Assembly (NCBI GenBank): GCA_032622095.1
Contig: CP136062.1
Location: 152,018,875 to 152,082,874 of the forward strand
Reading direction: 5' to 3'
Length of the DNA: 64,000 bases
Source of the DNA: Siphonodentalium dalli
Lineage: Eukaryota > Mollusca > Scaphopoda > Gadilida > Siphonodentaliidae
Shown here: positions 2,120 through 64,000 of the stretch, one piece after another
Layout: every line of letters starts with the position of its first letter
Numbering within the stretch: the stretch's first letter is position 1
Program-made: the position numbers and the translations under genes
The notes under the pieces: model-generated
What the model saw: only the letters and a program-made list of their open reading frames with translations
Databases searched by the model: none
Told to the model about the DNA's origin: nothing

Positions 2120-2127
2120 CGTGTGGA
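2120..2127. repeat. Left target-site duplication of the large element
   Basis: CGTGTGGA stands directly before the element end CAAGCCT. It matches CCTGCGGA at 11095-11102 at 6 of 8 positions. Uninterrupted satellite copies near 11520 and 12018 carry the site once, as CGTGTGGATGTCTGA, which fixes the insertion point. Confidence 0.7.
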
Positions 2128-3084
2128 CAAGCCTACAAACAGTATGTCTGTCATTTGCAGAATGTGTTTCACAGAAGGCGGGCTAGCATCACCAAATCCA
2201 CACTAAGGGAACCCCATTCTGCTTGTCCGGCCGCCAGGTCACGGATGCGTGTTTTAGCGTATAAAGTTTTTTTCTCTGCGGATTTTGTAAATTCAGGGAT
2301 CCGACATCAAGATTTTATCGACTGGCCATCTGTCAGCCTTGAGCAATTTTTTTATAGCGCCCTAAAAAGTATACAACCCCCCTCAATTTTTTCCCAGACG
2401 TAAAACCACAGTTACTTGGAATTTGTTGCAAATTCACATGACTAATCTGGTACAATGTATACAAATGTATATATTTTCATGAAGCTAAGACATAATGACA
2501 CTATTTTGGGCCAAAATTGAAACTCACCATCCAAGATGGCCACCAAAATGGCCGCCGGAAGTTGAAAATATGACATTTTTTCACAAATATCTTCTAGATC
2601 AGTTCATGCTGTTTGGAACTGGTTGAGTAATATGACTTTATTTTGTATATTAACTGATCATTGGAGCAATTAAATATGCAATTATTGGGGTCCTATCCGC
2701 TTGTGATACCTCAAAAATTCGATTTTACAGAACGTGGTATAAAATTTCACAAAAAATCACAACTGGGATTCTAGTCATAATTCAACAAGAAATGAACAGA
2801 AGGTTGCAATTAAGTGAGGCATACCATTACCTATGAATATTCCAACTCACTGGAACCAAAATTCTTACTTTGGCTCAAAATGGCAGCCAAAATATGGAAA
2901 ATGGTAAATATTGCCCTAGGGTGTCCTGCAATCGCTTACAAGTTGTGGTTGATGTACAGAATTGGCTATTATGCCTTCTATACATTGAATACTAACATGT
3001 CTGCTGTACCGTGGTTAATTGTTACTGTTGTCACCACTGACATCACCAAAAATATTGGACTTTTCTCTCAAAAACTTCACTTTA

Positions 3085-3270
3085 TGGACAGTCACTCCAT
3101 GCATACCGATTCACCACAAACCTGACCATGACCTCTCCCTGTATACCTATACATCTCACTATGGACAACACACTCATAACAATATAGTCACTCATTGTAT
3201 ACATATTCACATCATTCATGACATACACTAACTCCATGTATACCTATTCACCTCACCTATGATCATAGAG
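3085..3270 (+). repeat. Short minisatellite related to the one at the window's right end
   Basis: Units of the type ATATAGTCACTC...TGTATAC...ATTCACCTCA repeat about four times. The stretch is nearly the same, unit by unit, as 63805-64000, including the closing CGTATGATCATAGAGTA-like phrase. It is therefore a copy of the same larger repeat and not an independent array. The block that follows it (3272-3560) reappears inverted at 61330-61640. Confidence 0.8.
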
Positions 3271-3595
3271 TAACCCCCTGGCTACCATCTTGGCATCCAT
3301 CCTGTATCCAGTTGATATTGGTTTATCATAATGGACCAGAAGAGCCACATATTATGGTTCATCTCAGTACCGTCTCAAAGTTCTGCCCATTTCCTTTCAA
3401 TAATATGGCCAGAATCACAAAAGAGGTTCTCCGCAAAATTCGATACTTTAAAATGAATTTGTCATGCCCCATACGGAACTGGGACAACTGTAATAGAACA
3501 TTTATTAGTTGTCAGTTAATTAACTAACACGTATAATAACCAAGTGAGTGATAATTTGCTACCTTTTCGGATAACGCAGAGAATAATGTTATATA

Positions 3596-3810
3596 TATAA
3601 CTAGAAGGTGACCCGACTTCGTCCGGGGTTTGACTTTGAATTGTCTATTTTGAAGGCCAAGGTCAAGTGGGGTCACGATTTGACCCGTCCAAAACACTGC
3701 CCGAACAAAAGTACCCGTCGAAATCCATCCGGTTTTACCCGATTTGACCTTTTAACCCGATTTGATTTCCACTCAAGTATATAAACGCGCCTCATATACA
3801 CACGCTCATT
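3596..3810. repeat. Inserted segment beginning ACTAGAAGGTGACCCGAC, possibly a retroelement end
   Basis: This piece has no counterpart in the right arm. It opens with a phrase resembling the reverse complement of 51600-51630 (CCGGGCTAATCAGCTAGT) and is rich in TTTGACC/GACCTT motifs, like 51300-51560. I read both as fragments of one repeat family whose type I cannot name. Confidence 0.4.
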
Positions 3811-4984
3811 AATTATCAAGTTTCAACGTAAAGATAAATTACCATCGGTGCCCGAGATATCGCCAAGACGTCTGAAACAGTCAAATGCATCGGCCGGTTA
3901 ATAGTGCAGCGGCCAAACGCCAAAAGTGGTCGGGTACCCCTACCCACGGTAGAACAAGTTAAAACCAACTTTTTTTTAAGGTGAAATATATACTGTTGAC
4001 GAAAATGATAGTGAAAAATAACGGAATTGGTGGTGGCTATTCTCAAATCGACGATGAACGATACCCACCAGTGACTTTTCCAGAAATTAACGATTTTGGT
4101 AAAGTGAGCCCTGCGGCTTAGTCCTAAGTTATTTGCCCATATTGTTGGTGTTAAAATTACTACAGCATACCATATCTGTACCTGATATGAAAAAAGTGTT
4201 GGTTAATTTAGATTTTCCTTCCATTTGGAGCCAAAACATTTATTTTTTGTTGAAAAATCGCTCTTTTTCACAAAAATAATATTTTTCAAACATTATAATT
4301 CAAACGGATATTGCAATAATACTGAAATATTCAGTCCATATGGTGTAGTAGTTATCTGACAAGCATACGAAGAAAGAAGTGAACAGAAATTTTGAATGGT
4401 TTGCGATATATTGGATTTTAGCTACCCCTCCCCCAAACACGTTTTTGGTAGAAAAAATACATATTTTTGATAACGACATTACAAACATTTTCTAATTGAT
4501 CTGAATGGGACCCAATATGAATCTTGTACTGAAAGTTTTGTCCAGAGATACCGTTTAATTGATTACAGATGTGTTCAGGCTTTCAGACCTCCCAGTTACA
4601 ACAACAACAATTATTTTATTGATAACAGGTAATTTAGCATGCATTAACATCGATGTTAAGTACTAAAACCTTTGTTATAAACAACACGTGACCAACTATA
4701 TAATTCATATGGCTCAGTAGTTATCTGGACATCACAAGTAGAAAGAATTTGACAGAAATTGTGAACGGTTTTCCAGATATTGGAATTAGGTACCGCTCCC
4801 CCGGACGCGATTTGGTAGAACAAATGCATATTTATGATAACAACACAGACCTGTCTAAATGATTCTAATGGGCATCTAATCATAATTCGTGTGATGAAAA
4901 CGTGATCAGTAGACACCGCGAGCGTGGTTATAGATGTCCTCAGGTTTCCAAACCCCCAGTTACAACAACAACAAAACATTTTAT

Positions 4985-7960
4985 TTATAACATGTAAATT
5001 TATATTAACACATATCGACTTTGAGGGACTAAAGTATTTATTCTAAACGACACATAATATAGACTAACATAATCATATAGAACAAAATCATTGTTGCTTC
5101 CATAGTGATTATTAGAGTCCCTCTAAATCGACCAAATTATAGAAACAATGGATATTGTATTTTATATCTCATAAACTAGTTTGACCAAGGTGGAAGCGTT
5201 AGTTCAAATATGTTCTATGTTTTGAGCCCCCACCCCCCCCCCCCCCCCTTGCCCTATTAGAAGTCACACCACGAACTGAAAGAATATGATCTCAATATTA
5301 AGAATCATGTAACTACAAGGACAGTTACATAAGGAAATACACAATGTTTATGGATGGGTTTGTTCCCGAAATAGTGTGGCACTTTACAAAACGAGGCTGC
5401 GTGGCAAATATGAAGGGCGAATTTTCAATTTTTTCGAGAACACTCTACCCGATTTAAAGACTTGAACACAATACGAAATGAAGCTATGTGCTCTCTATAT
5501 TAAATGAGAGTGTGATTGGAATGTAGTACTATCAGAGAATACATAATTTGTATGGGTGGGTTATGCCTGTGTCGCTTTACACAAAGTGGCTGGTAAATAA
5601 GAAAGACGAATTTGCTATGTTTTGATTACCCCCCCCCCCTACACCATTGGAATGTTAAAGTTGAACAAATCACGAACTGAAATGGTTGCTGTAAATATTG
5701 ACTGAGGATCTTGGCAAAGTATATTAATATCGGGACATACATAATATTGATGGATGGGTTGGTTGGTTGGTTCCCGAAATCCTTTAGAACTTTACAAAAA
5801 TCGGATGGCAAACGCCAAAGGCGATATTTTTTGTTTTGTGGGACCCCTTTATAAGCCCATTTAAACTCTTGAACACACCATGCCCCGAATATATATGCTT
5901 TTATTATTAACTCACAGTGTGAACGAAAGGTAGTGCTATCAGGGAATATACAATTTATATGGGTAGTTTGGTTCCCAAAATCCTTGGGTACTTTACAAAA
6001 GGCGGCTGGCAAATGCCAAAGCTGAATATTTTCATTGAGCACCCTACCCCATTTAAAGTCTTAAACACACCAATGGATGGATTTGTTCTCAACATTAACT
6101 GATGTGTGGACACATGGTAGGTAATTCAGGAAATATACATCTTCAGTGGGTGGGTTGGTTTCCGAATGTCTGGGACACTTTACAAAAAGTGGCTAGCAAA
6201 GAGAAAGGCGAATTCTCACTGTTCTGGGTATCCATAACCCTTCTAAACTCTTTAGCACACATTGAGCCGAATCAATATTCTCTCAATATTAACTGAGTGT
6301 GCGAAATGTGATTATTGTTTTTTGAGGTCACACGACCCCATTTGAAGTCTTGAACACACAATGAACCGAAAGGATATGCTCCCAATATTAACTGAGTGTG
6401 AAGAGAAATGGACGCTATATCAAGAGTATAGTATATCAGGTCTTGAATGTCTGGGTCACTTTACAAAAAGCTGTTGGTGAAAGAGAAAGGCGAATACTCA
6501 CTGTTTGGGGGGACCCCATTAACCCATTTAATATCTTGATCACAGCATGAACTGACGTTATATTCTCTCATACTTAGCTTAGTGTGTGATAGAAAGGTAT
6601 TGCTATCATAGAATTATTAATTGATATGGGTGATTTGGTTCCCCCGATATCCTGGAACACTTTACAAAAAGCGGCTGGTAAACACGAAAGGCGAATTTTC
6701 TATGTTTTGGGGACCCCACTATCCCACTTGAAGTCTTAAACAAATGATATGCTCTCAATGTTAACTGAAGTTGTGGGCAAATGGGAGTATTATCTGGAAA
6801 TACGAATCTGTTATGGATGAGATGGTTCTCGAAAGCGGCCGGCAAACGAAAGGGCTAAATTTCACTGTCTTAGGGGACTCCAATCCCTATTTGAAGTCTT
6901 GAACACACCACTAGCTCAAGGCATATGCTATCAATATCACCCGAGATTGTGGCCGAATGGCTGTTCTGTCAGAAAAGATGCAACGCTCTCGCGAGCCCAC
7001 CGTTCGCGAGAACACCGTGGCACCTTACACAAAGCAGATGACAAACGATGAAGGCGAATTTTAAGGGACCCCTACCCCATGTAAACCATTGAACATACCA
7101 CGAACTGAATGGATGTGCCCTCAAGGTCAAACGACGATCAAGAAATACACAATTGTTAAAGATGGGTTGGTACCCGACAGTCAGGGACACTTTACAAAAA
7201 GCGACTGGACAATAAATAATGCGATTTTTCAATGTGTGTATTAGCCCCTTCCCACTTTGAAGACTAGAACTGGAACGATATCATCATTGACTGAGTGTAT
7301 GGACAATGGGGAGTTAGTTGTACAAGGATGTATGTACACAATGTAAATAGATGGATTGGGTTCAGAAAGCATGAGCACTTAACGAAAAGTGGCTGGAAAA
7401 TAAGAAAGGCAAAATTTTGAGGACCCCTACTTTATTTGAAGTCTTGGAAGACACCACATGGTGACATGATATTACCCCAATATTAACTGAGGGCTTGACA
7501 AACGGTTAGTTTTTATCAGGATATACATATGTGTTGGTTCCCGAAAATTTGTACCATGTGGCACTCCACAACAAGTGGCTGACAAATTTTCACTGCTTTA
7601 TGTACCCCTACCCTATTTGAAGTCTTGAACACATCATGTACTGAAGGGATTATGATTTCAATATCAACATATATTATGGCCGAAACTATGCGATATATAA
7701 GGCTGTATTGGTTTCCGACAGCATGTGACACTTTACAAAAAGCGGCTGGCAAATAACAAAAATGCAATTTTAACTGTTTATGTGACACATACGCTATTTT
7801 AAATCATGAAAACACCACAAACTCGAGGGACATGGTCCCAGTTTATACGATATCCAAGGTTGTATTGGTTTCCGACAGCATGTGACACTTTACAAAAAGC
7901 GGCTGGCAAATAACAAAAATTCAACTTTAACTGTTTATGTGACTATTACGCTAGTTTAAG
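4985..7960. repeat. Internal satellite, about 14 diverged units averaging about 190 bp
   Basis: A core CACTTTACAAAAAGCGGCTGG recurs near 5382, 5574, 5790, 5990, 6178, 6459, 6659, 6832, 7022, 7190, 7378, 7562, 7731 and 7887. It is followed each time by a GAAAGGCGAATTTT-like phrase, a C-rich phrase, GAAGTCTTGAACACACCA and AATATTAACTGAGTGT. Spacing is 155-280. The last two full units (about 7680-7840 and 7850-8000) are the most alike, suggesting recent local duplication. Minus-strand frames give recurring LPAAFCKV-like peptides, a result of the repeat rather than a protein. Confidence 0.85.
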
Positions 7961-8079
7961 TCATGAAAACACCACGAACTCGATGGACATGCTCCCAGTT
8001 TTAACTGAGTCTGTGGACATAGGGTAGTTCTATCAGGAGGTAAACAATTTATCTGGGAGAGAGAGAATGTATGGGGAAA

Positions 8080-8165
8080 GTTAGGACGTAATCCAGTTGG
8101 AGCTAATTGGATACAATGATATACACGTAGTTTCGTTGGAGCTGATTGGACACAATGATACACAG
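8080..8165 (+). repeat. Two-copy tandem repeat inside the large element
   Basis: GTTGGAGCTAATTGGATACA and GTTGGAGCTGATTGGACACA lie about 45 bases apart, each followed by ATGATA(T)ACAC. The stretch from 8165 to 8617 holds no recognisable gene or repeat. Confidence 0.6.
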
Positions 8166-8617
8166 ATAATGTTGTTTGCGTCATTGATATGTCCGTCGTC
8201 GTGAGATTACAGCTAGACGATCTGGTGGGGGTAAATTTCGCGCTCAGCAGGGTTTCTATGCTTTTCACGAAGTTTTAACAAATGACAGCGTTGTTGAAAT
8301 CGCTTTGTTTTCGAGATAAATGTTTGAACCCCGTCAATTATTTTAATATTTTCGCGATGACTGAGTTGCTGTGTTCCACACAAAAGAGTATTTCTGATAA
8401 AAATGACATTCAGTATGGCGCATAGAAGTTCAGTCCTAGGACCACTGTATTCAGGACATTCCTATAATTAATGATATGCTGTTTCTATTTTGCCACAACG
8501 ACAGAGAGGGGACGTTTTGATGTGATTACTCAATAGGTCATAGTTCAAACTACTGCATTTCAATCTTAAGCGAGAATGGAGTACTTGTGATATGCGACAC
8601 TTACTGTATGTAATAGC

Positions 8618-11094
8618 AAATAAAATTGGTTGTTGTTGTTGCAATTTGGGGTCTGGAAGCCCGAACACGTCTTTAATCACTTAAGCAATGTCCCCGGGCT
8701 CAATTTTCAGCAAACAAATTATGTTGGGTCCCATTATAATCAATTGGGAAATTTGGTAAAGTTCTGAACAAAAATATGTAATTTTTCGACCAAAAACATG
8801 TTTGGGGAGGGGTAGCTAAAATCCATTATTTCGCAAATCGTTCAAATTTTCTGTTATCTTCTTTCTGCATATGCTTGGCAGATAACTGCTTCACCATAAG
8901 GATTAAATATTTCGGCATTATAGCAATATCCACGTGAATGATAATGTTAGAACAATAATATTTTTGTGAAAAAGTGCGATTTTTCAACAAAAAATAAATG
9001 TTTCGGCTCCAAATGGCAGGAAAATCTAAATTAACGAACACTTTTTTCATATCAGTTAGAGGTATGGTATGATATAGTAATTTTAACGTCAACAATATTG
9101 GCAAATAGGTTAGGACATAGCCACAGGGCTCACTTTACCAAAATCGTTAATTTCTGGAAAAAGTCACTGGTGGGTATCGCTCATCGTCGATTTGACAATA
9201 GCCACCACCAATTCCGTTATTTTCACTATCATTTTCTTCAAAAGTATATATTTCTCCTTAAAAAAAAGTTGGTTTTATCTTGTTCTACCGTGGGTAGGGG
9301 TATCTCGAAAACTAGAGCTCTTTTTCGATTTGGCCGCTGCACTATAAGCGTTAACGTGATCTAACGTTATGAACTCTAACGACGTCATAGAAGTTACGCA
9401 TTGTTTTTATCCTGATGGAAGATAGTACCACTTCTTCTTGATAATTGAGGCAGATAACTAAAACGGATACATACGCATTATATATCGTTGGAAAGAGGAA
9501 ACACGAAATATTCTCACAGTGTCATTATTATGACTGGCATTTAATTATTCGCGCTGTTTCGAATCGATTTGTAAGCACCGAACTCAAATGAAAGTCCCGT
9601 AACACAGCGTAAAAACAGATTTGACCTCGACACGTGAAAAGTTGACTGAAAATCAATATGCCTATGCCACCCCCGGCCGAAAATACCCCCACATACCAAG
9701 TTTCATCGAAATCGGGTCGGTCGTTTTCGAGTTCATCGCGAACACACACACAGACCACACACAGACCACACACAGACAGATCTTCCAAAATATATAATAG
9801 ATGTTATAATGATATATGTAAAAAAAAAAACATATTACCAATTTGGTTGCCATTTTGGAAGCCATCTTCACCAATTTGGTCTATAAACACCGTAGTGTGA
9901 CACATTTAAGATATACCAATACAATAAACACATTTCAATCCAAAGATAGTTACATTTTACTAGAAAAAATGGTCCAAACCTGAAAAGTGAATTTTTGCCG
10001 ATATTTATGTCAAGTTTTTGAGAGAAAAGTCCAACATTTTTGGTGATGTCAGTGGTGACAACGGTAACAATTAACTATGGTACAGCAGACACATGTTAGT
10101 ATTCAATGTATAGAAGGCATAATAGCCAATTATGTACATCAACCACAACTTGTAAGTGATTGCAGGACACCCTAGGGCAATATTTACCATTTTCCATATT
10201 TTGGCAGCTATATTGAGCCAAAGTAAGAATTTTGGTGCCAGTGAGTTGGAATATTCATAGGTAATGGTATGCCTCACTTAATTGCAACCTTCTGTTCATT
10301 TCTTGTTGAAATATGACTAGAATCCCAGTTGTGATTTTTTGTGAAATGTTATACCGCGTTCTGTAAAATCGAATTTTTGAGGGATCACAAGCGGATAGGA
10401 CCCCAATAATTGCATATTTAATTGCTCAAATGATCAGTTAATATACAAAATACAAAATAAAGTCATATTACTCAACCAGTTCCAAACAGCATGAACTGAT
10501 CTAGAAAATATTTGTGAAAAAATGTCATATTTTCAACTTCCGGCGGCCATTTTGGTGGCCATCTTGGATGGTGAGTTTCAATTTTGGCCCAAAATAGTGT
10601 CATTATGTCTTAGCTTCATGAAAATATATACATTTGTATACATTTTACTAGATTAGTCATGTGAATTTGCAACAAATTCCAAGTAACTGTGGTTTTACGT
10701 CTGGGAAAACATGGGGGGGGGGGGTATACTTTTTAGGGCGCTATAAAATAAACTGCTCAAGGCTGACAGATGGCCAGTCGAGAAAATCTTGATGTCGGAT
10801 ACCTGAATTTACAAAATCCGCAGAGAAAAAAACTTTATACGCGAAAACACGCATTCGTGAATTTCGGGGGTTTGGCGACCGGACAGGGGATATAGAAACT
10901 TCCCATGCAGAAGGGAAAAAGTAAATAAAAACAATGTTAATTTGAGACTAGATACTTCCCAGAATATGAGGCCTAAGCATAATGAGGCCCCAGAGGGTGA
11001 TTTAGGTGATGCTAGCCCGCTATATATTGCATCACTAAATTTAACCTCTGGGGACCTCATTCTGCAAATGACAGACACGCTATTTGCAGGCTTG
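8618..11094 (-). repeat. Right inverted-repeat arm
   Basis: Reverse complement of the left arm in blocks: 8618-8840 with 4400-4628, 8940-9340 with 3830-4260, and 10060-11094 with 2128-3075. The part at 9840-10060 matches 61100-61325 inverted, so the right arm keeps sequence the left arm has lost. The last 120 bases contain a small imperfect hairpin (10980-11072). Confidence 0.75.
9570..9800 (+). repeat. Probable non-LTR retrotransposon 3' tail with CACA/CAGA microsatellite
   Basis: The phrase TTTCATCGAAATCGG, then TCGTTTTCGAGTTCATCGCG, then a run of (CACACACAGAC) units, is the kind of conserved tail with microsatellite end seen on RTE-like LINE insertions in invertebrates (recalled, not searched). 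It is present only in the right arm, so it arrived after the arms formed or was lost from the left. Confidence 0.4.
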
Positions 11095-11102
11095 CCTGCG
11101 GA
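11095..11102. repeat. Right target-site duplication of the large element
   Basis: CCTGCGGA follows the element end AGGCTTG and matches CGTGTGGA at 2120-2127 at 6 of 8 bases. Satellite sequence resumes at once with TGTCGGAGAAGTCTCGATG. Confidence 0.65.
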
Positions 11103-12170
11103 TGTCGGAGAAGTCTCGATGAACCGGTTTGTTACGAGAAATCAGTATCTTGTGCCATTCTTGGTTGTGTAAATCGAATTGAAGAATAAGCATCGTATTA
11201 GGTATATGTATTGCAAATTGGAGATATTTTAGGTCAAATTCGGGCAAGTTGAATAGTATTTTAGGGGAGAATTGTGGCAAATAACAGTATTTTTCACATT
11301 TATGCCCGAATTATACATATTTAAGGTTAACTTGAATCTATTTTGTAATATTTATATACAAGGTATATTCTACAAACACTGTTACAACCATGAGTATATT
11401 AGGTAACAAAAAATCGGGCAAAAAGTCTCAGCCCCCCCACCCCCCCTAAGATTCGACTTCCCTTTTATCGTTACCACAATACATCCAACGCCACACACAC
11501 ACAGATAAAAATACATAGCCGTGTGGATGTCTGAGAAGTCTCGATGAACCGGTTTGTCACGAGAAATCAGTATCTTGTGGCATTCTTGGTTGTGTAAATC
11601 GAGTTATCGAGCTCTGTTGAAGAATAATTTAGCATCGTATTAGGTGTCCCGTGTCTATATATTGAAAATTTGAGATATTTTAGGTCAAATTCGGGCAATT
11701 TTCGGCCAAATTGAATGATATTTCAAGGGGGAATCATGGCAAATTACAGTTTTTATCACATTTCTGCCAGAAATATACATACGTAAGGTTAATTTGAATC
11801 TATTCTGTTATATTATGTGTATATACAAGGTATATTCTACAAACACTGTTACAATTAACCATGATTATATATATCAGGTAAAAAAAAATCGGCCCCCCCC
11901 CCCCCCTAAAAATTCGACCGCCGGCTATGGGTAAATATACGCGTCCTGCTATCTCAAATTCCTTTTACCTTTACCACAATACATCCAATGCCACACACAC
12001 AGATGAAATATATAGCCGTGTGGATGTCTGATAAGTCTCGATGAACCGGTTTGTCACGAGAAATCAGTATCTTGTGGCATTCTTGGTTGTGTAAATCGAG
12101 TTATCGAGCTCTGTTGAAGAATAAGCATCTTATTAGGTGTTACGTCCCGTGTCTATATATTGCTCCCTGA
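11103..12170 (+). repeat. Right part of the satellite array, with inserted poly(C)-ended element
   Basis: Three successive units start with GAAGTCTCGATGAACCGG near 11109, 11534 and 12031, each followed by GAAATCAGTATCTTGTG, the phrase that also marks the monomers at 337-2119. The first two units are longer (425 and 497 bases) because each contains a copy of a roughly 220 bp insert (11215-11450 and 11670-11930). That insert starts GAGATATTTTAGGTCAAATT and ends in a C run then TTCGAC. The same insert occurs alone at 33543-33789. Confidence 0.8.
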
Positions 12171-14109: not shown

Positions 14110-15445
14110 TATCATGCAGCGGAATATCAACCACATAACTACCCGATCCTTAGAATATTATGAGCTGTATACCAGCGTAAACCCGTTTAAGATGTTAGGC
14201 CCTGGCGTCACTAACAATATCTGAACGTTATAACTTGATATTCACTATCCGTCTGATGGCACCACTAACATTGTTAACATTTTGGCTTCGGGGGTAATAA
14301 ATATTTTATTCAAGTCGAGGAACCTACCCATTAACGCTCAGAGTGATCAGATATCGTTTTTTGAAGTTTGTTATTTCTATTGTTTACGGCCCGGAAATAC
14401 GCCGTCAAAAGGATGGTCTCGGTCAAAATTGCGGATGAAGATGGATAACTCTTAGATCAAGAGCTTAGTATTACCACTTGATTTTAGAGCTATCCATCTT
14501 CATCCGCAATTTGTCCGATTGACCACGTGTTTCTGGGCAAATTATCAGTACACATCTCGAGAAATAACAAATTTCAAAATCAGTATCTGTTCACTCTGAG
14601 CTTTGATAGGGGGGTTTCTCGACTCGAATCCAATTTTGTTACCCACCCCCCACGCCGAAGCCAAAGAAATAGTAATTTAAGAGAGTCTGATCGGATTGAA
14701 TACCTATAAAGAGCGTCCCCCGAATAAGTGAGTTTAAAGAGCGATTTTTACAGAGCTATTTTCCCGAAGAAACTATTTTAAAGGCTTGCAACCCCGATCT
14801 ATCTAGGGGAAAGAACTCTAATGAAAGCGTGCCGTGTCAGGTTAGATTTACTCAGATTCTGTGCTAATTCAGGTTCAGAGGGAGATAATCCTGTTATACC
14901 TTGCGATCGGAATCCGGCGGCACGGAACGCCCAAATCGATGGTGGATAATGTACACTATGTAGCGGAATCTCAACCTCCTTAATATATGCATCCATTGCG
15001 TGTGAGATTATAGATTTACTCAGATTCAAGGCTATATATAATACAGGTCTACATGCAGCTCAAGCTCTAATTACCCTGCGATCGAAATCCGCTGTGGGAT
15101 AATAATGTACACCATGTAACGGAATCTCAACGTCCCTAATATAAACATAGAATGCGTGTGAGGTTAGATTTACTCAGATTCATGGCTAATTAAGGTTTAT
15201 ACGGAGACCCGGGCTAATCGCGTTACCATACGATCGAAATACCCGGTGGCACGGAAACGCCCACTCGCTGTATGATATTAATGTACACTTAATAACGGAA
15301 TCTCAACCCCCCTAACATAAGCATCCAATGCGTGTGATATTTACTCAGACTTGGGGCCAGTTCAGGTTTAAAGGGAGACCCGGGCTAATCCCGTTATACC
15401 CTGCGATCGGACTCCGGCGACACGGAACCCATGCATCATCTCATG
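14110..15445 (+). repeat. Satellite of about 150-180 bp units, split by a hairpin element
   Basis: The phrase GTTAGATTTACTCAGATTC recurs near 14830, 15008, 15157 and (shortened) 15338. Each is followed by a GGAGA(C)CCGGGCTAAT-like phrase, CGATCG(A/G)AAT, a GGCACGGAA phrase and GTAACGGAATCTCAAC. A single unit end also occurs at 14105-14155, just left of the MITE at 14280-14710. AGCGTATCATG flanks the region on both sides (14106, 15467). The MITE therefore sits inside the array. Confidence 0.7.
14280..14710. mobile_element. Palindromic MITE, family 1, copy A (left end decayed)
   Basis: Family 1 hallmarks are all here: TTGGCTTCGGGGGTAA, a GAGTCGAGGAACC phrase, a central inverted pair around GGATGAAGATGGATA...TATCCATCTTCATCC (14434/14491), then the complement phrases, and CTGATCGGATTGAATACCT at the right end. 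The left terminal repeat is not recognisable. The whole unit folds back on itself. No coding capacity. Confidence 0.75.
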
Positions 15446-16377: not shown

Positions 16378-16670
16378 ACTCCAGTTTCAAAACCCGGTCG
16401 TATTATGTAAATGGTTCGTCCGTTTTCGTCCGCCCGGTTCCGCGCTATTCATTTCCCGTTACTCTAAATTAATCCTTTCTTTATTGACGAGTTGTTTCCC
16501 TTATAAAAGTTCACATACTAAGTTCAACAAATGAATATAGATCACTCTGCACGTGTGTTATATGTTCATACATCTGTAGTATGTTTATATTTCATGAACA
16601 TCCCTTCAGATTCCATTCCAACTTATACTTTCACAAAACTGATGGGATAATCCGTTTGATAACGTAAGGA

Positions 16671-17138
16671 TTAAAGATGCATAATCCGAATTAACGCTCC
16701 CAAATTACTATTTCTTTGGCTTTTGGGGTAAAATATATTTGATACGAGTCGAGGAATCCACCCATAAAACCTCAGAGTGATCAGATATCGATTTTTGAAA
16801 TTTGGTATTTATCGAGATATGTACGGTACTTATTTGTGGCCTGGAACAAAATTGTCAAGGCAACGGTCTCGGACAAAATTGCGAATGAAGATGGATAGCT
16901 CTAAAATCAAGTGGTAATACGGCCAACTTTCCTGATAATCAAATGATAATACGGCCATATTTCGTTGAAGAACATGTTGATAAATAACACGGTTTGGTAA
17001 ATTTTATACCATAGTTGACAGTGGTTAGCATTATTTTGTTGTAATTAATCGATTCTGATAACTAAAGCTAATTTAAAGAAATGTTGTTATTGTATCTTGA
17101 TGATATGGGGACCGTCTGATCGGATTGAGTACCTTTAA
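16671..17138. mobile_element. Palindromic MITE, family 1, copy B (diverged)
   Basis: Starts with a decayed TTAAAGATGCATAATCCG and ends CGGATTGAGTACCTTTAA. It carries the family phrases TTTCTTTGGCTTTTGGGG, GAGTCGAGGAATCC and ATGAAGATGGATAGC. The centre of the palindrome is partly missing, so the second half is short. Confidence 0.75.
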
Positions 17139-19818: not shown

Positions 19819-19855
19819 GATTGTAGTGGGGTTGAGATATGGTTGCTGTTAGATA

Positions 19856-20300
19856 TTAAAGGTACTCAATCCGAATTAACGGTCGCAAATTACTATTTCC
19901 TTGACTTCGGGGGTAAAAAATATTTGATTCGAGTCGAGGAACCCACCCACCACAGCTCAGAGTGATCAGATATCGATGTTATAAATCTATTATTTTAATT
20001 ATAGTGGCCCAATAGACAGTCAACGAGAAGAATTTCATTGACCAAATTGCGGGCAAAGATGGATATTAAACTCTAAAATCAAGTGGCTTTTTGTGTCAGA
20101 TATTTGACAAACCGGTAAAATTTCGTTGAACAAAATGGTGATAAATAACAGGTTTTGTGCAATTTTATACTATAGTTGATGGTGTTTTTCATTATTTTTG
20201 GGCAATTATTAGATTCTGAAACTGAAGCGTCATTTCAAAAAATGTTGTTGTTGGAATGTGATTATATGGGGACCCTCTGATCGGATTAAGTACCGGTACC
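19856..20300. mobile_element. Palindromic MITE, family 1, copy C
   Basis: Left end TTAAAGGTACTCAATCCG is intact. The right end reads CTGATCGGATTAAGTACC and then GGTACCTGTAAG, a small change at the terminus. Internal phrases match the other copies (GACTTCGGGGGTAAAAAA, GAGTCGAGGAACCCACCC, GGGGACCCTCTGATCGG). Confidence 0.8.
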
Positions 20301-28360: not shown

Positions 28361-28836
28361 TTAAAGGTACTCAATCCGTAAAGAGGGTCCCCATCTCAAC
28401 ATATTCCAACAACAACAATCCGATCAGAGGGTCCTATATTACTATTTCTTTGGCTTTGGGGGTAAAAACTATTTGATTCGAGTCGAGGAACCCATCAAAC
28501 AAAGCTCAGAGTTATTAGATATTGATTTTTGAAATTTGTTATTAACTCGAGATGAGTACTAATAACTGCCGTAATCTGCTCTGGATGTGTACTCCAAATC
28601 TATTCAAACAGACAAGGATGGATAACTCTAAAATCAAGTGGTAATTTTAACGCAATTTTGACTGAGTTCTGGGCCAGATAGTATTCCCGATAATGAAAAA
28701 TATAGATTTCTAAAATCGATATCTAACAAATCTGAGCTTTGATGGGTGACTTCCTCGACTCGAATCAAATATTTTTGACCCCAGAAGCCATTGAAATAGT
28801 AATTGAGAGGAGTTTCATCGGATTGAGTACCTTTAA
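28361..28836. mobile_element. Palindromic MITE, family 1, copy D
   Basis: Full-length: TTAAAGGTACTCAATCCG to CGGATTGAGTACCTTTAA. It is nearly identical to the copy at 44214-44690 and, inverted, to 57298-57762, so these three are the youngest. The centre pairs AACTCTAAAATCAAGTGG with its complement. TTAA (or TTTAA) flanks both ends. The minus frame giving VEEVTHQSSDLLDID is a repeat artefact found in all three. Confidence 0.9.
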
Positions 28837-44213: not shown

Positions 44214-44690
44214 TTAAAGGTACTCAACCCGTAAAGAGGGTCCCCATCTCAACAGATTCCAACAACAACAATCCGATCGGAGGGTCCTATATTACTATTT
44301 CTTTGGCTTTGGGTGTAAAAAATATTTGATTCGAGTCGAGGAACCCATCAAACAAAGCTCAGAGTTATTAGATATTGATTTTTGAAATTTGTTATAAACT
44401 CGAGATCCGTACTACTAACTGCCGTAATCTGCTCTGGATGTGTTCTCCAAATCTATTCAAACAGACAAGGATGGATAACTCTAAAATCAAGTGGTAATTT
44501 TAACGCAATTTTGACTGAGTTCTGGGCCAGATAGTATTCCCGATAATGAAAAATAATAGATTTCTAAAATCGATATCTAACAAATCTGAGCTTTGATGGG
44601 TGACTTCCTCGACTCGAATCAAATATTTTTGACCCCCGAAGCCATTGAAATAGTAATTGAGAGGTGTTTTATCGGGTTGAGTACCTTTAA
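44214..44690. mobile_element. Palindromic MITE, family 1, copy E
   Basis: TTAAAGGTACTCAACCCG to CGGGTTGAGTACCTTTAA, full length and nearly identical to 28361-28836. Bounded by TTTTAA/TTTAA. Confidence 0.9.
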
Positions 44691-48739: not shown

Positions 48740-49300
48740 CTTATTGTGAAGCTAAGACATAATGCTAACTTTTAGGGCAAACTTGGAACTCCAAGTCCAA
48801 GAATAACCATTTTTTACTTATATCTTCTAAATTAGATTCTGCTGTTTGGAACTGGTTGAGAATTGCGACTTTATTTTGTATTTTTCATATTAACTGATCA
48901 TTGGAGCAATGCAATATGCCATTCTGTGGTCCCAAGCCCATCCAAAAATGTTATTCTACAAAATGCGGTATAAATTTCACCAAAAAAATCATCATTTAGC
49001 TCAAAATGACCGCCAAAATGGCAGCCAAATTATGGAAAATCGTACATATTGCCCCATCGTGCCCTGCAATAGGTTACAAGTTATTGTTTAACTGTTACTA
49101 TTGTAACCATTGACATTTTTCTCTCACAAACTTGACATAAAAATCAGCAAAAATTAACTTTTCAGTTTGGATCTTTATTTTCAAGTTAAATGGAACTCTC
49201 ATTGGTAGCAAAGGTGTTTTTTGTTTTGATCTGTCTTAAATGAGTCACACTGATGTGTTTTTGGACCAAATTACTTAAAATTGCTTGCAAAATAGCAACC
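48740..49300 (+). repeat. Partial copy of the large-element arm, inside an intron
   Basis: GAAGCTAAGACATAATG, CTGCTGTTTGGAACTGGTTG, AACTGATCATTGGAGCAAT and the paired ATGGC(C/A)GCC motifs follow the same order as 2480-3060 and 60540-61320. It is the most diverged of the four copies and has lost the ends. Confidence 0.75.
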
Positions 49301-49439
49301 AAATTATTATTATGCGATTATAATTGGGGGCGTTTTCATTGTCTGTATGGTCAATGTAACTAATATACTAGAAAGTTAAATTTCTAAAGCGAAAAACAAT
49401 GGGTTCAGCTTAGCTTGGGTCCGATGTACATGTAAGAAG

Positions 49440-49815
49440 TTTTGAATACGCGCATCAGGTAGTGAGTATGGTCATGGGTGGGATATACAGGTGTACCTTG
49501 ATATGGCTGTATAGTCATGGTTGGGTGTATATGTATACACGTATTGGCTGTATGTGTGTATGGATAAATAGCGAGTGATTGTATGGTTATGGGTAATGTG
49601 TATATGGAATGACTAACGGTAATGGTTGAATTGTATTTTCATACCTGGAGTATTATAGCTTGATGTTCATTTGCGGGCGTGTGGATATATACAGGGAGTG
49701 CCCTTGCGACCATGCTTGTGAGGGTTATGTATAACTGTATTGTCATCGCTTGGTGTATATGTATACAAGAGCATCTGTGTGACCATGAATGGGGTGTATA
49801 AATGAGTCACAATGT
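49440..49815 (-). repeat. Minisatellite, reverse orientation, next to the arm copy
   Basis: Units such as TATAGTCATGGTTGGGTGTA, then TATGTATACA, are the reverse complement of the 62400-64000 units. As at 60.5-62.3 kb, the array follows an arm copy on its right, so arm and array travel together. Confidence 0.7.
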
Positions 49816-57297: not shown

Positions 57298-57762
57298 TTA
57301 AAGGTACTCAATCCGATAAAACTCCTCTCAATTACTATTTCAATGGCTTCGGGGGTCAAAAATATTTGATTCGAGTCGAGGAAGTCACCCATCAAAGCTC
57401 AGATTTGTTAGATATCGATTTTAGAAATCTATTATTTTTCATTATCGGGAATACTATCTGGCCCAGAACTCAGTCAAAATTGCGTTAAAATTACCACTTG
57501 ATTTTAGAGTTATTCATCCTTGTCTGTTTGAATAGATTTGGAGTACACATCCAGAGCAGATTATGGCAGTTATTAGTACTCATCTCGAGAACATAACAAA
57601 TTTGAAAAATCAATATCTAATTGTTTGATGGGTTCCTCGACTCGAATCAAATATATTTTACCCCCAAAGCCAAAGAAATAGTAATATAGGACCCTCTGAT
57701 CGGATTGTTGTTGTTGGAATCTGTTGAGATGGGGACCCTCTTTACGGGTTGAGTACCTTTAA
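57298..57762. mobile_element. Palindromic MITE, family 1, copy F (inverted relative to D and E)
   Basis: TTAAAGGTACTCAATCCG to CGGGTTGAGTACCTTTAA. Its sequence is almost the exact reverse complement of 44214-44690, with small differences. It includes the asymmetric ends: one side has AGGACCCTCTGATCGG and TTGTTGTTGGAATCTG, the other has neither. Confidence 0.9.
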
Positions 57763-58135: not shown

Positions 58136-60260
58136 TTATATGTGCTTGTCTGCTTCTGTTTTTAAGGTGTTTACTCTGTGCACATGAATTGAGTATAAGA
58201 AATTTCTTGCCAGTTTTTCAATTTGTTCTTTTTCTATATCGGTAAGGTTCCAGGATTCTAGTTTTGTGCAGTCTATGGTTAACTGAGTTAAGAGTTCTGG
58301 TTGATCAATAGTGTATTTGTCAGTGGTAGTTTTTGAGAGACATAGTTTGAGTGTTTGTATGTAACAATGTCGTTGGTTGTTAGTGTTCGTACATTGTGAA
58401 ACGAAAGTATTCTGTCCTCATCAGCTAGTTTGCAGAGTGGACACATGGCAGAGGTAAGGTTTTGTCTGAATCTTTTTCTATTTATTTGTAGTAAATAAGT
58501 GTCTGTCATCAACCATGTTTTTATAATAGCCTTTTTTGTGGCAGCGGGCGAGTATTTTGATGAATCCCATACAAAATGACATTTGCTGCTTGAGTTTTCT
58601 TGTAATTTGATCATTGTTAATGTTGTTTTACTGGAGAACTCTTTGTCATTAATATCATGCCAATATTGGTATATAGCTTTTTTACATATTGTTTTCCATT
58701 TGTTGGCATCTTCCTTACTGTGGATGGTGCTTATGATATGCAGTGGGTCAGGAAGGGTATATTTGGAAAGTATGTCTCTGACATGTACAAACCAGCTATA
58801 GGTCTATAGCGCCTTGGATGGGAATAGCACCAATAAGTGCATTTGTAGCAGCATTTGCTGTGCGTGTTGATAAACTCTGCAATTGTCTCATGTTTTTCGT
58901 TGGAAACGTTCGAGTTCATCTATGTCTTTTTTTTCATATGTAGGATTTCTATACCATGCATCATTCTAGGAATGACAAAAGTGTTCCACATTTGGTATGC
59001 TATTACTGGTGATATGCCGTTTGTTCCATGTAGCCCTGTACCCATCAAGGAGTATAGGGTTCGTCTGCCCATTACTATTCGTTTTGGGATATCTGGGGTA
59101 TTCGTTGGATTACGCTCTACACCTAGGTGTTTGGTGAAGCCTACAATATTAACAGGTGTTCCACCTAGGACAGTTTTTATTTCACCATTCATTTTTTGTG
59201 TAGATGTTTTCATTTGGACAATTTCGCATTTAGTTGCGTTCATTGCGAATCGATCTTTACATGAGTTGTTGTATACAATACTTGTGAGAGTTTGTAAATC
59301 AGCTGTTGTTTTTGCTAAGATGGCTACATCATCTGCACAGGTGGGGGCTGTTATATCAATTGTGCCAATTTTAAACCCAGCTGCATTGTTACTTAGCTGA
59401 TTTAGCATGTCGTTGTTAAATCTTTTATAGAGCATTGCTGATAATTAACCCCTTGTCTTATTCCTTGGTGAAGTAGTATATCTGAGGAGTATGATTCACC
59501 CCAGTTTACCTTTGTATTCGCCTCATGATGTTATGAATTTACAAGTAGCCATAGGTAGCTGTGGATCCCATCAATGAAAAGTTTTCTCAGTAGGCTTTTA
59601 TGCCACACAACGTCAAATGCTTTTTCAGCATCCAGGGTTTCTAATATTAATTTCTCATTTATGTCTTTGCTTTCATTGAATGCTTCAGTTATCATAAGCC
59701 CAGCAACTAGGGGTGATGTGCCTTGAGTGAAGCCACGTTGCATTTTATTTTGCGATGGTAATAGTATGTTGTCTAATTTGTCTTGCAGGGTTGCTTCTAG
59801 GATTTTACATATTATGGAGCTGATAGTTATGCCCCTGTAATTCCCTGGTTTTGTTGGGTCTTTGTCCTTTTTTGGTACAGGTGTTAATATGCCGATTTTT
59901 ATTTCTTTTGGCACTTCTCGTTTTTCATATATAGTGTTTATGATGTTCATGATTATTGGGGCAGTTTCTTCTATGCTATATTTGAGGTGTTCAGCCGTAA
60001 TTCCAGCATAGTCAGCTGCTTTATTTAGTTTGAGCTTATTGACAATTGTTTTAATTTCATGCAGTGTGACTGGTTCTAAAAATGGTTTATTAGCATGACA
60101 TATTTGTTCAATAGCTTCAATATCTATCAGCCGAGACTTGTTTGTGGAATGTATCATCAAATCTATCAGCAGTGTTTGGTTCTGACAGTTTTTAAAAGTG
60201 TTTAAACCACCCATCCATCATCTGCTCGGCACCATATTGGTGTCCATCTATTTAGTGGGG
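58136..60260 (-). pseudogene. Decayed LINE ORF2: reverse transcriptase and C-terminal domain
   Basis: Minus strand, in order: AEQMMDGWFKHF (60225), LTPVPKKDKDP and NYRGITISSIICKILEA (RT fingers), LDAEKAFDVVWH (palm A, catalytic Asp; about 59610). A break follows near 59530, GIRQGVNY in another frame, then APTCADDVAILA (palm C, catalytic Asp pair preceded by Ala; about 59330), NATKCEIVQMK and GRRTLYSLMGTG...IPRMMHGIEIL (thumb and beyond). CPLCKLADEDR sits at about 58430. The end is LESWNLTDIEKEQIEKLA to a stop at 58136-58138. The CADD motif and CPLC segment suggest the I/Nimb or a related clade (from memory). Several frameshifts make it inactive. The endonuclease is missing, so it is 5'-truncated near 60260. 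The 3' untranslated part may reach about 57840. Confidence 0.9.
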
Positions 60261-60479: not shown

Positions 60480-61325
60480 GTTTTCTCAATACAATTATAG
60501 TTGGGAGGTGACAACGGTTCATTTGGGCCAAAACATATCTAAATTTTCATAAGATGGCCGCCAATATGGTCGCTGGAAGTTGAAAATATGACATTTTTTC
60601 ACAAATATCTTCTAGTTCAATTCATGCTGTTTGGAAATGGTTGAGTAATGCAACTTTATTTTGTGTTTTGTATATTAACTGATCATTGGAGCAATTAAAT
60701 ATGCAATTATTGGGGTCCTAACCCCTTCCAATCCCTCAAAACTTCGATTTTACAGAACGCGGTACAAAATTTTACAAAAAAATCACAATTGGGATTCTAG
60801 TCACATTTCAACTAGAAATGAAAAGAACATTGTAATGCAAGTGAGGCATATCATTACCTATGAATATTCCAACTCTCTGGAACCAAAAATCTTACCTTGG
60901 CTCAAAATGGCTGCCAAAATGGCCGCCAAAATATGGAAAATTGTAAATATTGCACCAGGGTGTCATGCAATTGCTTACAAGTTGTGGTTGATGTATAAAA
61001 TTGGCTAATCTGTATTCTATACATTGAATACTAACATGAATACTAACATGTCTGATACACCATGTTTCATTGTTACTATTGTCACCTCTGACATCACCAG
61101 ATATATTGGATTTTTCTCTCACAAACTTGACATAAATATCGGCAAAAAATCACTTTTCAGGGTTCGACCATTTTTTCAAATAAAATGCAACTACCTTTGG
61201 TATCAAATGTGTTTATTGTTTTGACCTATCTTAACTGTGTCACACTATGGTGTTTATAGACTAAATTGATCAAGATGGCTTCCAAAATGGCAACCAAATT
61301 TGTAAAAAGTAATTTTTTTTACACA
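60480..61325 (+). repeat. Copy of the large-element arm
   Basis: Follows 2510-3075 in order (GGGCCAAAA, AAGATGGCCGCCAATATGG, TTGAAAATATGACATTTTTT, CTGATCATTGGAGCAATTAA, GTGAGGCATATCATTACC) and then continues with 61100-61325, which matches the reverse complement of 9840-10060. This copy keeps sequence found separately in the two arms of the large element. Confidence 0.85.
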
Positions 61326-61329
61326 TATC

Positions 61330-61640
61330 CAGAAAATTATTCTCTGCGTTATCCCAAAAGGTAGCAAATTGTGACTGACTCGGTTATTATACCTGTTAGT
61401 TAATTAACTGACAACTATGTTCTATTATGTTTATCCTAGTTACGTATGGGGCATGACAAATTCATTTTAAAGTTGCGGTATGGAATTTTGCGGATAACCT
61501 CTTTTGTGATTATGGCCATATTATTGAAAGGAAATGGGCAGAACTTTGAGACGGAACTGAGATGAACCATGAGATGTGGGTAGTCTGGCCCATTATGATA
61601 AAAAATTATCAACTGGATACAGGATGGAAGCCAAGATGAC
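61330..61640 (-). repeat. Inverted copy of the 3272-3560 block
   Basis: Reverse complement of 3272-3560 throughout: TTATTCTCTGCGTTATCC, GTTAGTTAATTAACTGACAA, GTATGGGGCATGACAAATTC, TTTTGCGGATAACCTCTTTT, ATCAACTGGATACAGGATGG. In the large element this block follows the minisatellite; here it precedes the inverted one. Confidence 0.85.
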
Positions 61641-62290
61641 AGACAGGGAGTTACTTTATGATCGTAGATGAGGATAATATGTATACCGCGAGTTATTGTA
61701 TGGTTATGGATGATGTGTGGGTATATGGGGAGTGCCTGTTGGCAACGATGGGTTGTATATTTATATATGTTGTGGATGTGTTATCATTGATGGTGTATGG
61801 GGAGTAGATGCATGACCATGAGTATGGCAAGTGTGGAACTTATGAGAGGTCATATGTGCGGGCATTGGTTTATCTGGAAGGGCTCACCATTTGTGATGTG
61901 CATATGTATACCTGGATTGACTCTATGGTAATGGATATGGCGAATAGGTATACATCTAGTTGGCTGTATAGTCCATGGTGAGGTGAATAGGTATACAACG
62001 CGTGACCGTATGATCGTGAATGTAGTGAATATGTATACATAGAGTGACTATATGGCCATGTGTCGGGTGTATGTGTATACCTGGTGTTTATACATGGTGA
62101 CTCGTGGCTGTATCGTCATTTGTGGTATGTACGGGTATAACCAAGTATGGCTGTATGATCAGGTGTACGTATATAAAGTGACTATGTTGTCATTTGTGTT
62201 GTGTTTATGTACATATGGAGTGACTGAGGTAATGGGTGGGTTGTACATGTGTACCTTGGGTGGCACAATAACTCAAGGATATGTTAATCA
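61640..62290 (-). repeat. Minisatellite of about 47 bp units, reverse orientation
   Basis: Units of the type GTATACAT...GAGTGACTATATGGCCATG...GGTGTATGTGTATACC. They are the reverse complement of those from 62400 on. Units are strongly diverged from one another. Confidence 0.8.
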
Positions 62291-62394
62291 ATGGAGAGGT
62301 CATGTCAGAGAGTTCTCTATCTTGATGGTGTTTATTTACATGGGGGCGTTAAACACGGAAAACGATGGCCACCTATTACCACACAGTCATTACA

Positions 62395-64000
62395 TATATA
62401 CATAAACACCACATACATAACAATATAGTGACCCACTGTATACATGTACACCTGACCCATGACCACGGGTGACATTACAGCCACGCGTCACGATACAGGC
62501 ACACCGGGGATACTCCTAAACATGACCGATAACCATATAGTCATTCCTTGTATACCAATTCAGCTCACCATTGGCCATAATGTCATCCCCTGTATACCTA
62601 TTCTCCAAAACACGTGGTCAAATAAATCAATATATACATCAACAATGACCATTAAGTCACTCCGGGTATACATATGCACCTCACCAATGGCCATATAGCC
62701 ACTCGCTTCATACACATACCTTAACCAATGGTACCTGACCTATGGCCATATAGTCACACCGTGTGTACCTATTCAAAACATTCATACACGACCATGATCA
62801 ATCCTTGCATACATATTCACCTCAACATTGGCCATGTCACTCCCTGTATCCGCATAGTCACTCAAGATATACTAATACACCCCAGCCATGTCAGTATAGT
62901 CACTCCATGTATGCATATGCACTTTATCCATGGCCACATAGCCACTTGCTATATACACGTATCCCTTGCCCATGACAATAAAGCAACACATGTGTATACT
63001 GGTATAACCTACACATGACCATACCACCACGAGTCACCAAACAGGAACACCAGGTATACTCATACGCCTGACAGATGACAATTGTAATAGTCACCCCTGT
63101 ATAGATGTCCATTATATTTATGATCATACACTCACTACTTGTATACCTACATGTACTCATCTCACCATTGACCATACAATCACTACCTGTATACCTATAT
63201 TGACACACATAGTCATATAACCACTCGATATACATATACAGCCCACCCTAGACCATAGATTCACTCCAAGCATACAACTAAACCTCACTAATGGCCATTC
63301 AGCCCTTCCAGATATACACACAACCACTCAAACAATCAAACAATCCACACTTGCATATACACCTCACACATGACAATTCAGCAATTCACTGTATAATCAT
63401 ACATGCCATCCATGATAATACAGCTAATCCCTATACACCCACCAATGATAATACATCCATGAAATATATAAATATGCACCCCACCCGTTACCACAAGGAC
63501 ATTCCCTATATACCCACACACTCGATAATGTCCATACAGCTTACTCCAGGTAATCATATTCAATCATGACCGTACAGTCATTCCGTGTATACCTATACAC
63601 ATTACCCGTAACCATAAAATCACACCCTATTTACCAACACACCCATACATGATCATACAGACAACACATGTACATCCCACCCATGCCTTTACAGTCACTC
63701 ATATATACATAAACAACACATAGATGACCATGTACCTATATCCATACACCACACCAATGCCCATACAGGCACACCTGGTGCGCCCGTACTGGATATACAC
63801 AATCATACACCATACAGTCACTCCATGCATACCGATTCACCTCACACCTGACCATGACATCTCCTTGTATACATAAATGCATCTTACAATGGACAACCCA
63901 ATCATAACCATATAGTCACTCATTGTATACCTATTCACATAAGTCATGACATACAATAACTCACTGTATACCTATTCACCTCACGTATGATCATAGAGTA
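62395..64000 (+). repeat. Minisatellite of about 47 bp units, forward orientation, running off the window
   Basis: Units of the type CCATATAGTCACTCC...TGTATACCTATTCACCTCACC...ATGACCAT, spaced about 46-54 bases, more than 30 in all. The last part (63805-64000) is nearly identical to 3085-3270. About 100 bases of non-repeat sequence (62290-62395) separate it from the oppositely oriented array. Confidence 0.85.

Follow-up and report, generated by a model that had tools for sequence, protein, structure and literature searches.

A seeming giant foldback in Siphonodentalium dalli read as a nest of four non-autonomous elements

How a long pair of inverted arms around a satellite core has come to lie between positions 2128 and 11094 of a 64,000-nucleotide stretch of the scaphopod Siphonodentalium dalli genome is the question addressed here. 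The whole stretch, hereafter the window, corresponds to C2:152018875-152082874 in the source assembly of 2,226,750,531 bases and 9 contigs with which the comparisons were made. When the window is compared with itself, inverted arms are seen to enclose a tandem-repeat core, and the longest open frame within these limits measures 144 amino acids. The original prediction saw in this arrangement a single giant foldback with CAAGC ends that had captured repeats. We consider it very probable that the locus is instead a four-step nest of non-autonomous elements, each of a known kind: from outermost to innermost, a CAAGC-ended miniature inverted-repeat transposable element (MITE; layer 1), an outer foldback (layer 2), a Helitron (layer 3) and an inner foldback (layer 4). 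Two of the four are foldbacks with satellite repeats, and the seeming 2.5 kb arms are the layer 2 foldback plus the layer 4 foldback. Both represent new families of foldback, a kind of element that is already known. Nested foldbacks can look like one giant element, a tempting misreading that is corrected here, and outer boundaries that are right do not reveal which sequence lies between them.

The outer boundaries were indeed placed correctly. The terminal CAAGCCT at 2128 and AGGCTTG at 11094 are present, and the flanking 8-mers CGTGTGGA and CCTGCGGA, the diverged 8-bp duplication of the prediction, are identical at 6 of 8 positions. The uninterrupted target AGCCGTGTGGATGTCTGA occurs at 11517 and 12014, the sole matches in the window with up to three substitutions on either strand. 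Within these boundaries, the arms fall into separate blocks, namely 2128-2175 against 11094-11047 (83% identity), 2239-3080 against 10860-10009 (95% over 852 aligned bases) and 3901-4620 against 9345-8619 (85% over 731 aligned bases), the last two well above the level of chance, while no mutual alignment was found between 3081-3900 and 9346-10008. A drop in identity near 2239, together with the stretch that does not align, gave the first hint against one single arm. Moreover, the homologous parts of the arms belong to three repeat families, those of the MITE ends, the outer foldback arms and the inner foldback arms. Of the proposed 2.5 kb arms, the inverted arrangement around a tandem core stands, but the continuous repeat does not.

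Searches of the source genome, in which match counts rest on 40 scored candidates per query, place the limits of each family. With 10840-11094 as the query, all 39 other full matches start at query positions 45-53 (window 10884-10892) and reach 11094 at 87-89% identity (40 scored of 6213 candidates); 38 of the 78 matches overall are short matches to an internal palindrome. Nine complete CAAGC-ended elements in the stretches fetched from the genome (numbered L002 and so on; the window's element and that in L002 excluded) measure 254-452 bp. The two halves in the window, joined solely to display the empty site, align with complete MITEs, and 113 nt of the middle are absent relative to L032-L034. 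Across 11 MITE loci, the window and L002 included, the 8-bp duplication is perfect at five, matches at 7/8 at one and at 6/8 at two (the window and L029), and is not recognisable at three (L002, L030a and L034); this count leaves out L035, with an unreadable left end, and the single or broken ends in L006/L031, L014, L015, L019 and one in L027. Elements elsewhere in the genome do share these ends and carry 8-bp duplications, as anticipated, but the complete ones are short MITEs and not 9 kb elements. A further CAAGC MITE in L029 (9206-9637; 432 bp, 6/8 target duplication) has its right part at 1-262 of the window, near a 165-bp tandem array at 340-1898.

The proposed hAT-like affinity fares in a similarly mixed way. 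The target consensus of Ac is nTnnnnAn. That of Buster, according to passages of PMC3517528, is nnnTAnnn, and none of the five perfect MITE duplications fits either; for Tip, a third hAT group, the part of PMC3942097 drawn on here states that target preference had not been investigated. While the 8-bp duplication, perfect at 5 of 11 loci, is a hAT trait, it is this length, and nothing besides, that would make the MITE hAT-like. As described in parts of PMC3517528, hAT MITEs such as Mar are likewise short and non-coding, with many copies and 8-bp duplications, but Mar begins CAG(G/A)GG and its duplications fit nnnTAnnn, whereas the layer 1 MITE begins CAAGC and its perfect duplications do not.

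These results bear on the reading of the locus as one giant 9 kb non-autonomous hAT-like foldback with 2.5 kb arms that captured satellites, which would account for the matching CAAGCCT/AGGCTTG ends and the diverged 8-bp duplication, and to which L002 lends something, since there too a foldback lies within a CAAGC element. It is scarcely tenable, as the nine complete CAAGC-ended elements are without arms, in all 39 other full matches the homology ends at the MITE/foldback junction, and the arms have ends and duplications that are theirs alone and recur outside any CAAGC element. Since both the arms and the satellite core come from families with separate ends and many further genome copies, the notion of repeats captured by one element is given up as well.

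The first of these families is that of the outer foldback, with TAGTCCGG ends. For the query 2128-2300, which gave 41 matches with the window itself included (40 scored of 1785), 39 of the 40 other matches start at query positions 92-98 (window 2219-2225), and one, in L002, at query position 55. The idea that the foldback arms end at CAAGCC was rejected because of these starts. The figure of 1785, like that of 2413 for layer 4 below, refers to first-look candidates and not to counted copies. In the 20 layer 2 stretches that were fetched, L028 (which continues the window's second copy) among them, the second end is seen in 13 and the exact right end is readable in 12 (not in L010), at 2.7-6.4 kb from the left end. 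Identical 3-mers flank both ends in 10 of these 12 full copies, compared with 4 of 132 cross pairs. Within the window, the left arm (2239-3080) is 95% identical to the right arm. Bases 3088-3598 match positions 2798-3310 of the 4390-bp copy in L026, and the window copy is without about 1.94 kb (L026 859-2797) on its left side, in the gap between 3080 and 3088. The left and right arms within one copy are 83.5-96.5% alike (13 copies, the window's included), about as similar as arms of different copies, for which the mean identities are 95.1% (left-left), 92.2% (right-right) and 93.2% (left-right). A search of five open frames from layer 2 copies for a transposase found no Pfam domain in any of the five (the L017 frame comes from a copy that is not fully delimited). 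In L023 (5555-6763), an open frame with a TRM5/TYW2 methyltransferase domain (2e-17) has a foldback end at its start.

Assemblies are known to go wrong at long inverted arms that are nearly identical. This, together with the loss of half of the left arm from the window's layer 2 copy, is what could be said for taking the outer arms as a segmental inversion or an assembly artefact and not as a transposed element. Given that 3-bp duplications accompany the same ends at 10 of the 12 other loci, and that uninterrupted target sites are known for the inner layers, such an explanation has very little chance of being right.

A second locus with a layer 2 family foldback in a CAAGC MITE, L002 (273-1700), raises the question whether the MITE and the outer foldback form a composite mobile unit that predates the Helitron and the inner foldback, L002 being another copy with an internal deletion, moved by way of the MITE ends. 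In both loci the left junction falls at a near-identical point and in the same orientation, and their homology ends at the CAAGC termini, with unrelated flanks. On the other hand, the right junction of L002 retains about 14 bases that are absent from the window, no 8-bp duplication is recognisable at L002, and only these two loci of the kind were seen. Between the two loci, the foldback is identical at 927 of 963 positions (96%), the right half of the MITE at 179 of 203 (88%) and the left half at 73 of 90 (81%); the divergence of the foldback differs from that of the MITE right half (Fisher p of about 3e-5), which speaks against one composite ancestor and favours separate insertions at a preferred point. 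The composite unit is accordingly a rather improbable account, and separate foldback insertions at a preferred point of the MITE appear somewhat more likely from these comparisons.

For the Helitron, the query 3595-3760 (41 matches; 40 scored of 1773 candidates) found itself, 39 matches at 99% that cover the query completely or lack a single base of it, and one partial match. The three fetched copies L037-L039 are uninterrupted across the layer 4 junction, and resemble the window at 98.4-98.7% over 3590-3905 and at 86-88% over 9345-9801 (L039 to 9737 only). Layer 3 has the minus-strand sequence A|TCTATTATATATT...CCCCGGACGAAGTCGGGTCACCTTCTAG|T; it begins TCTATT, ends CTAG and is inserted between A and T, and a predicted 5-bp stem, CCCGG/TCGGG, ends 11 nt from its 3' end (one sequence, folded with RNA parameters). 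Helitrons are recognised by a 5' TC, a 3' CTRR, a hairpin before the 3' end and insertion between A and T without duplication; layer 3 shares all these hallmarks of non-autonomous Helitrons, and no difference was seen. All 11 full outer foldbacks covered here (21 arms, those of L020 not among them) have the Helitron target without a break, from which it is seen that the insertion duplicated none of its bases. At the junctions of the Helitron, a duplication of 13-14 bp, as read from the window's second copy, was considered and discarded, being an AT-rich repeat already in the target. Helitron-like units also lie head to tail in L037 (149-1800), the end of one directly abutting the start of the next.

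The innermost element, of the TAGTGCAG family, is the source of the supposedly private satellite. With 3880-4080 as the query (40 matches; 40 scored of 2413 candidates), 33 of the 39 other matches start at query positions 19-23 (window 3898-3902), and six at 10-18. A full-length copy of 5516 bp in L040, TAGTGCAGCGGCC...GGCCGCTGCACTA with CAT/CAT flanks, is colinear with 3902-9344 at 94-96% through the entire core. Colinearity extends over part of the core in L041 and L043 (82-92%), and L042 matches only the first 0.4 kb of layer 4. Among the four fetched copies, the right end is unreadable in these three, so that both ends are seen in the window (TAA) and in L040 (CAT). As the core is colinear in other copies, the satellite is an internal part of the layer 4 family and is not private to this locus. 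The features of the nest and of its target are collected in Table 1.

Table 1. Positions of the four nested elements, their parts and their target sites in the window
Feature	Position	Strand	Remark
Left target-site copy, CGTGTGGA	2120..2127		6/8 identical to right copy
Layer 1, MITE left half	2128..2222	+	aligned with complete MITEs from L027, L029, L030, L032-L034
Layer 2, outer foldback (TAGTCCGG family) in MITE, interrupted by layers 3 and 4	2223..10885		genome copies
Layer 2, left arm, distal part	2223..3080	+	2225-3080 92.7% to L026 positions 3-858
Layer 2, remnant of 42-bp satellite	3088..3285	-	then reverse-arm sequence to 3600
Layer 3, non-autonomous Helitron, interrupted by layer 4	3601..9801	-	own sequence 3601-3901 and 9348-9801, 755 bp
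Layer 4, left 3-bp duplication TAA	3899..3901		empty site in L037-L039
Layer 4, inner foldback (TAGTGCAG family), intact, both ends, 5443 bp	3902..9344	+	most other copies start here
Layer 4, left arm	3902..4620	+	85% to 8619-9344 inverted
Layer 4, internal tandem repeats (the 'private' satellite)	5263..8060	+	limits approximate
Layer 4, right arm	8619..9344	-	inverse of 3902-4620
Layer 4, right 3-bp duplication TAA	9345..9347		empty site in L037-L039
Layer 2, right arm	9802..10885	-	9801-10884 91.9% to L026 positions 3312-4388
Layer 1, MITE right half	10886..11094	+	other genome matches begin at window 10884-10892
Right target-site copy, CCTGCGGA	11095..11102		flanking 8-mer comparison
Paralogous uninterrupted target, copy 1	11517..11534	+	pattern search of window
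Paralogous uninterrupted target, copy 2	12014..12031	+	pattern search of window

The nest was very probably built as follows. A CAAGC-ended MITE inserted into a tandem monomer and made the 8-bp duplication, the paralogous empty monomers showing the site. A non-autonomous foldback of the TAGTCCGG family then came to lie within the MITE, where 113 nt of MITE sequence are absent, and at some stage it was shortened by about 1.9 kb in the left arm and satellite core, as the comparison with a full copy shows. Into the remaining outer foldback arm, a non-autonomous Helitron inserted between A and T, and into the Helitron a TAGTGCAG-family foldback, with both ends present and a TAA duplication; empty sites are seen for both steps. 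Judging from the ends, the MITE and both foldbacks were probably moved by cut-and-paste transposases acting in trans, with an 8-bp stagger for the MITE and a 3-bp stagger for the foldbacks, and rolling-circle transposition probably moved the Helitron. The foldback shape itself results from arms that bear satellite as well as inverted repeats, as is the case in Tetris and Galileo.

Several observations weigh against this account. The right half of the Helitron is only 86-88% like L037-L039, while the left half is 98-99% like them. Matching duplications are wanting at 3 of 11 MITE loci, in 2 of the 12 full layer 2 foldbacks, and at the window's own layer 2 copy, which is flanked by TGC and GGG. 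As 113 nt of the MITE are also absent at its junction with the outer foldback, the step that places the foldback within the MITE is carried by homology only. Further, the arrangement in L002 might mean that the composite of MITE and foldback is older or moved as a unit. Finally, the long arms could be misassembled.

The two foldbacks can also be compared with each other and with known foldbacks. Both make 3-bp duplications, carry different satellites and end in TAGT. Their ends, TAGTGCAGCGGCCAAA and TAGTCCGGTCGCCAAA, agree at 12 of 16 bases in fixed register, an agreement reached by 2 of 100,000 random 16-mers from the window, which suggests one shared or related transposase. Going further, it is conceivable, albeit doubtful, that both families are moved by one transposase, from a superfamily with no link to foldbacks so far, and spread inverted satellite arrays genome-wide. 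Layers 2 and 4 have the traits of foldbacks, namely long inverted terminal repeats and tandem repeats in or between the arms, and their fixed ends come with a duplication at several loci, in 10 of 12 copies for layer 2 and in both of the copies with two ends for layer 4.

Galileo makes a 7-bp duplication, compared with 3 bp in the foldbacks described here. As outlined in parts of PMC3573991, Galileo (P superfamily, Drosophila) has similarly long inverted arms that are repetitive internally and often rearranged, both within a copy and from copy to copy, but has a P-type transposase, none of which was found in the foldbacks studied here. Tetris of Drosophila virilis, as portrayed in sections of PMC4079207, is also alike in its inverted terminal repeats of up to 1,735 bp and its arm tandem repeats of about 220 bp, whereas the satellite units are 42 bp in the outer and roughly 160-200 bp in the inner foldback. 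The same sections give Tetris a variable middle, no conserved open frames, a related short form resembling a MITE and an autonomous partner that had not been found. Its duplications of 8-10 bp, partly why it was assigned to Mutator, differ from the 3-bp duplications and TAGT ends here. The Mutator superfamily is the home of most foldbacks, going by that portion of PMC4079207, and excerpts of PMC10045372 give 4-10 bp for target duplications of IS256/MuDR and name Zator as one superfamily with 3-bp duplications. The Mutator trait of a duplication longer than 3 bp is not seen in layer 2, where it is 3 bp in 10 of 12 copies. A literature search on foldbacks in molluscs or bivalves, or with long repeats, returned no title on these families among the matches listed. 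Two delimited families with satellite in arms or core and 3-bp duplications should help in studying how satellites are seeded by foldbacks and how foldback cores come to be flipped.

The satellite of the outer foldback already offers some insight. In the window, the 42-bp satellite is found only at 3088-3285, 49457-49786, 61642-62268 and 62376-63999 (profile search, E up to 0.01), and every such stretch adjoins layer 2 arm sequence. Arm sequence resembling 2533-3080 and 9811-10565 is found again at 60551-61329, and in a diverged form at about 48747-49314. Over 61642-63999, the parts of the satellite are inverted about a point near 62330 (19 inverted and no direct matching pairs across the point; 26 direct and no inverted pairs within the parts), from which it follows that the layer 2 arm family carries inverted satellite arrays. 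Satellite in one orientation and then the other is present in 15 of the 20 layer 2 stretches, L028 included; no such pattern was seen in L013, L016, L020 and L025, and that of L017 is more complex. L012, L014, L018, L019 and L024 carry the satellite core in inverted orientation with respect to their distinguishable ends, as alignment also confirmed for the first four. These five copies form one group in trees of 14 (support 89/88 for the core and 100/98 for the left arm), so one inversion between the arms, followed by spread, suffices. Recurrent flipping of the core was accordingly set aside as unneeded.

Two other copies of the layer 2 family lie in the window as well. The stretch 60551-64000, running on to about C2:152083946 (L028), is a second, more diverged copy without about 300 terminal bases on both sides relative to L026. 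A third, diverged half copy at 48747-49786 has an arm and satellite in one orientation that ends abruptly.

Elsewhere, Rfam and transfer RNA scans of the window, and exact-pattern scans of viral contigs and of genome contigs, gave no matches. The minus strand at 58288-60217 holds broken frames of a non-long-terminal-repeat retrotransposon, with one RVT_1 match at 6.6e-11, another at 1.2e-5 that falls below its cut-off, and a weak zf-RVT match. Finally, a family of repeats that measure about 477 bp and have inverted ends, perhaps another MITE, is present at 28361-28836, 44214-44690 and 57298-57762 with 94-97% likeness, together with related pieces at 14281-14698, 16670-17133 and 19855-20294.

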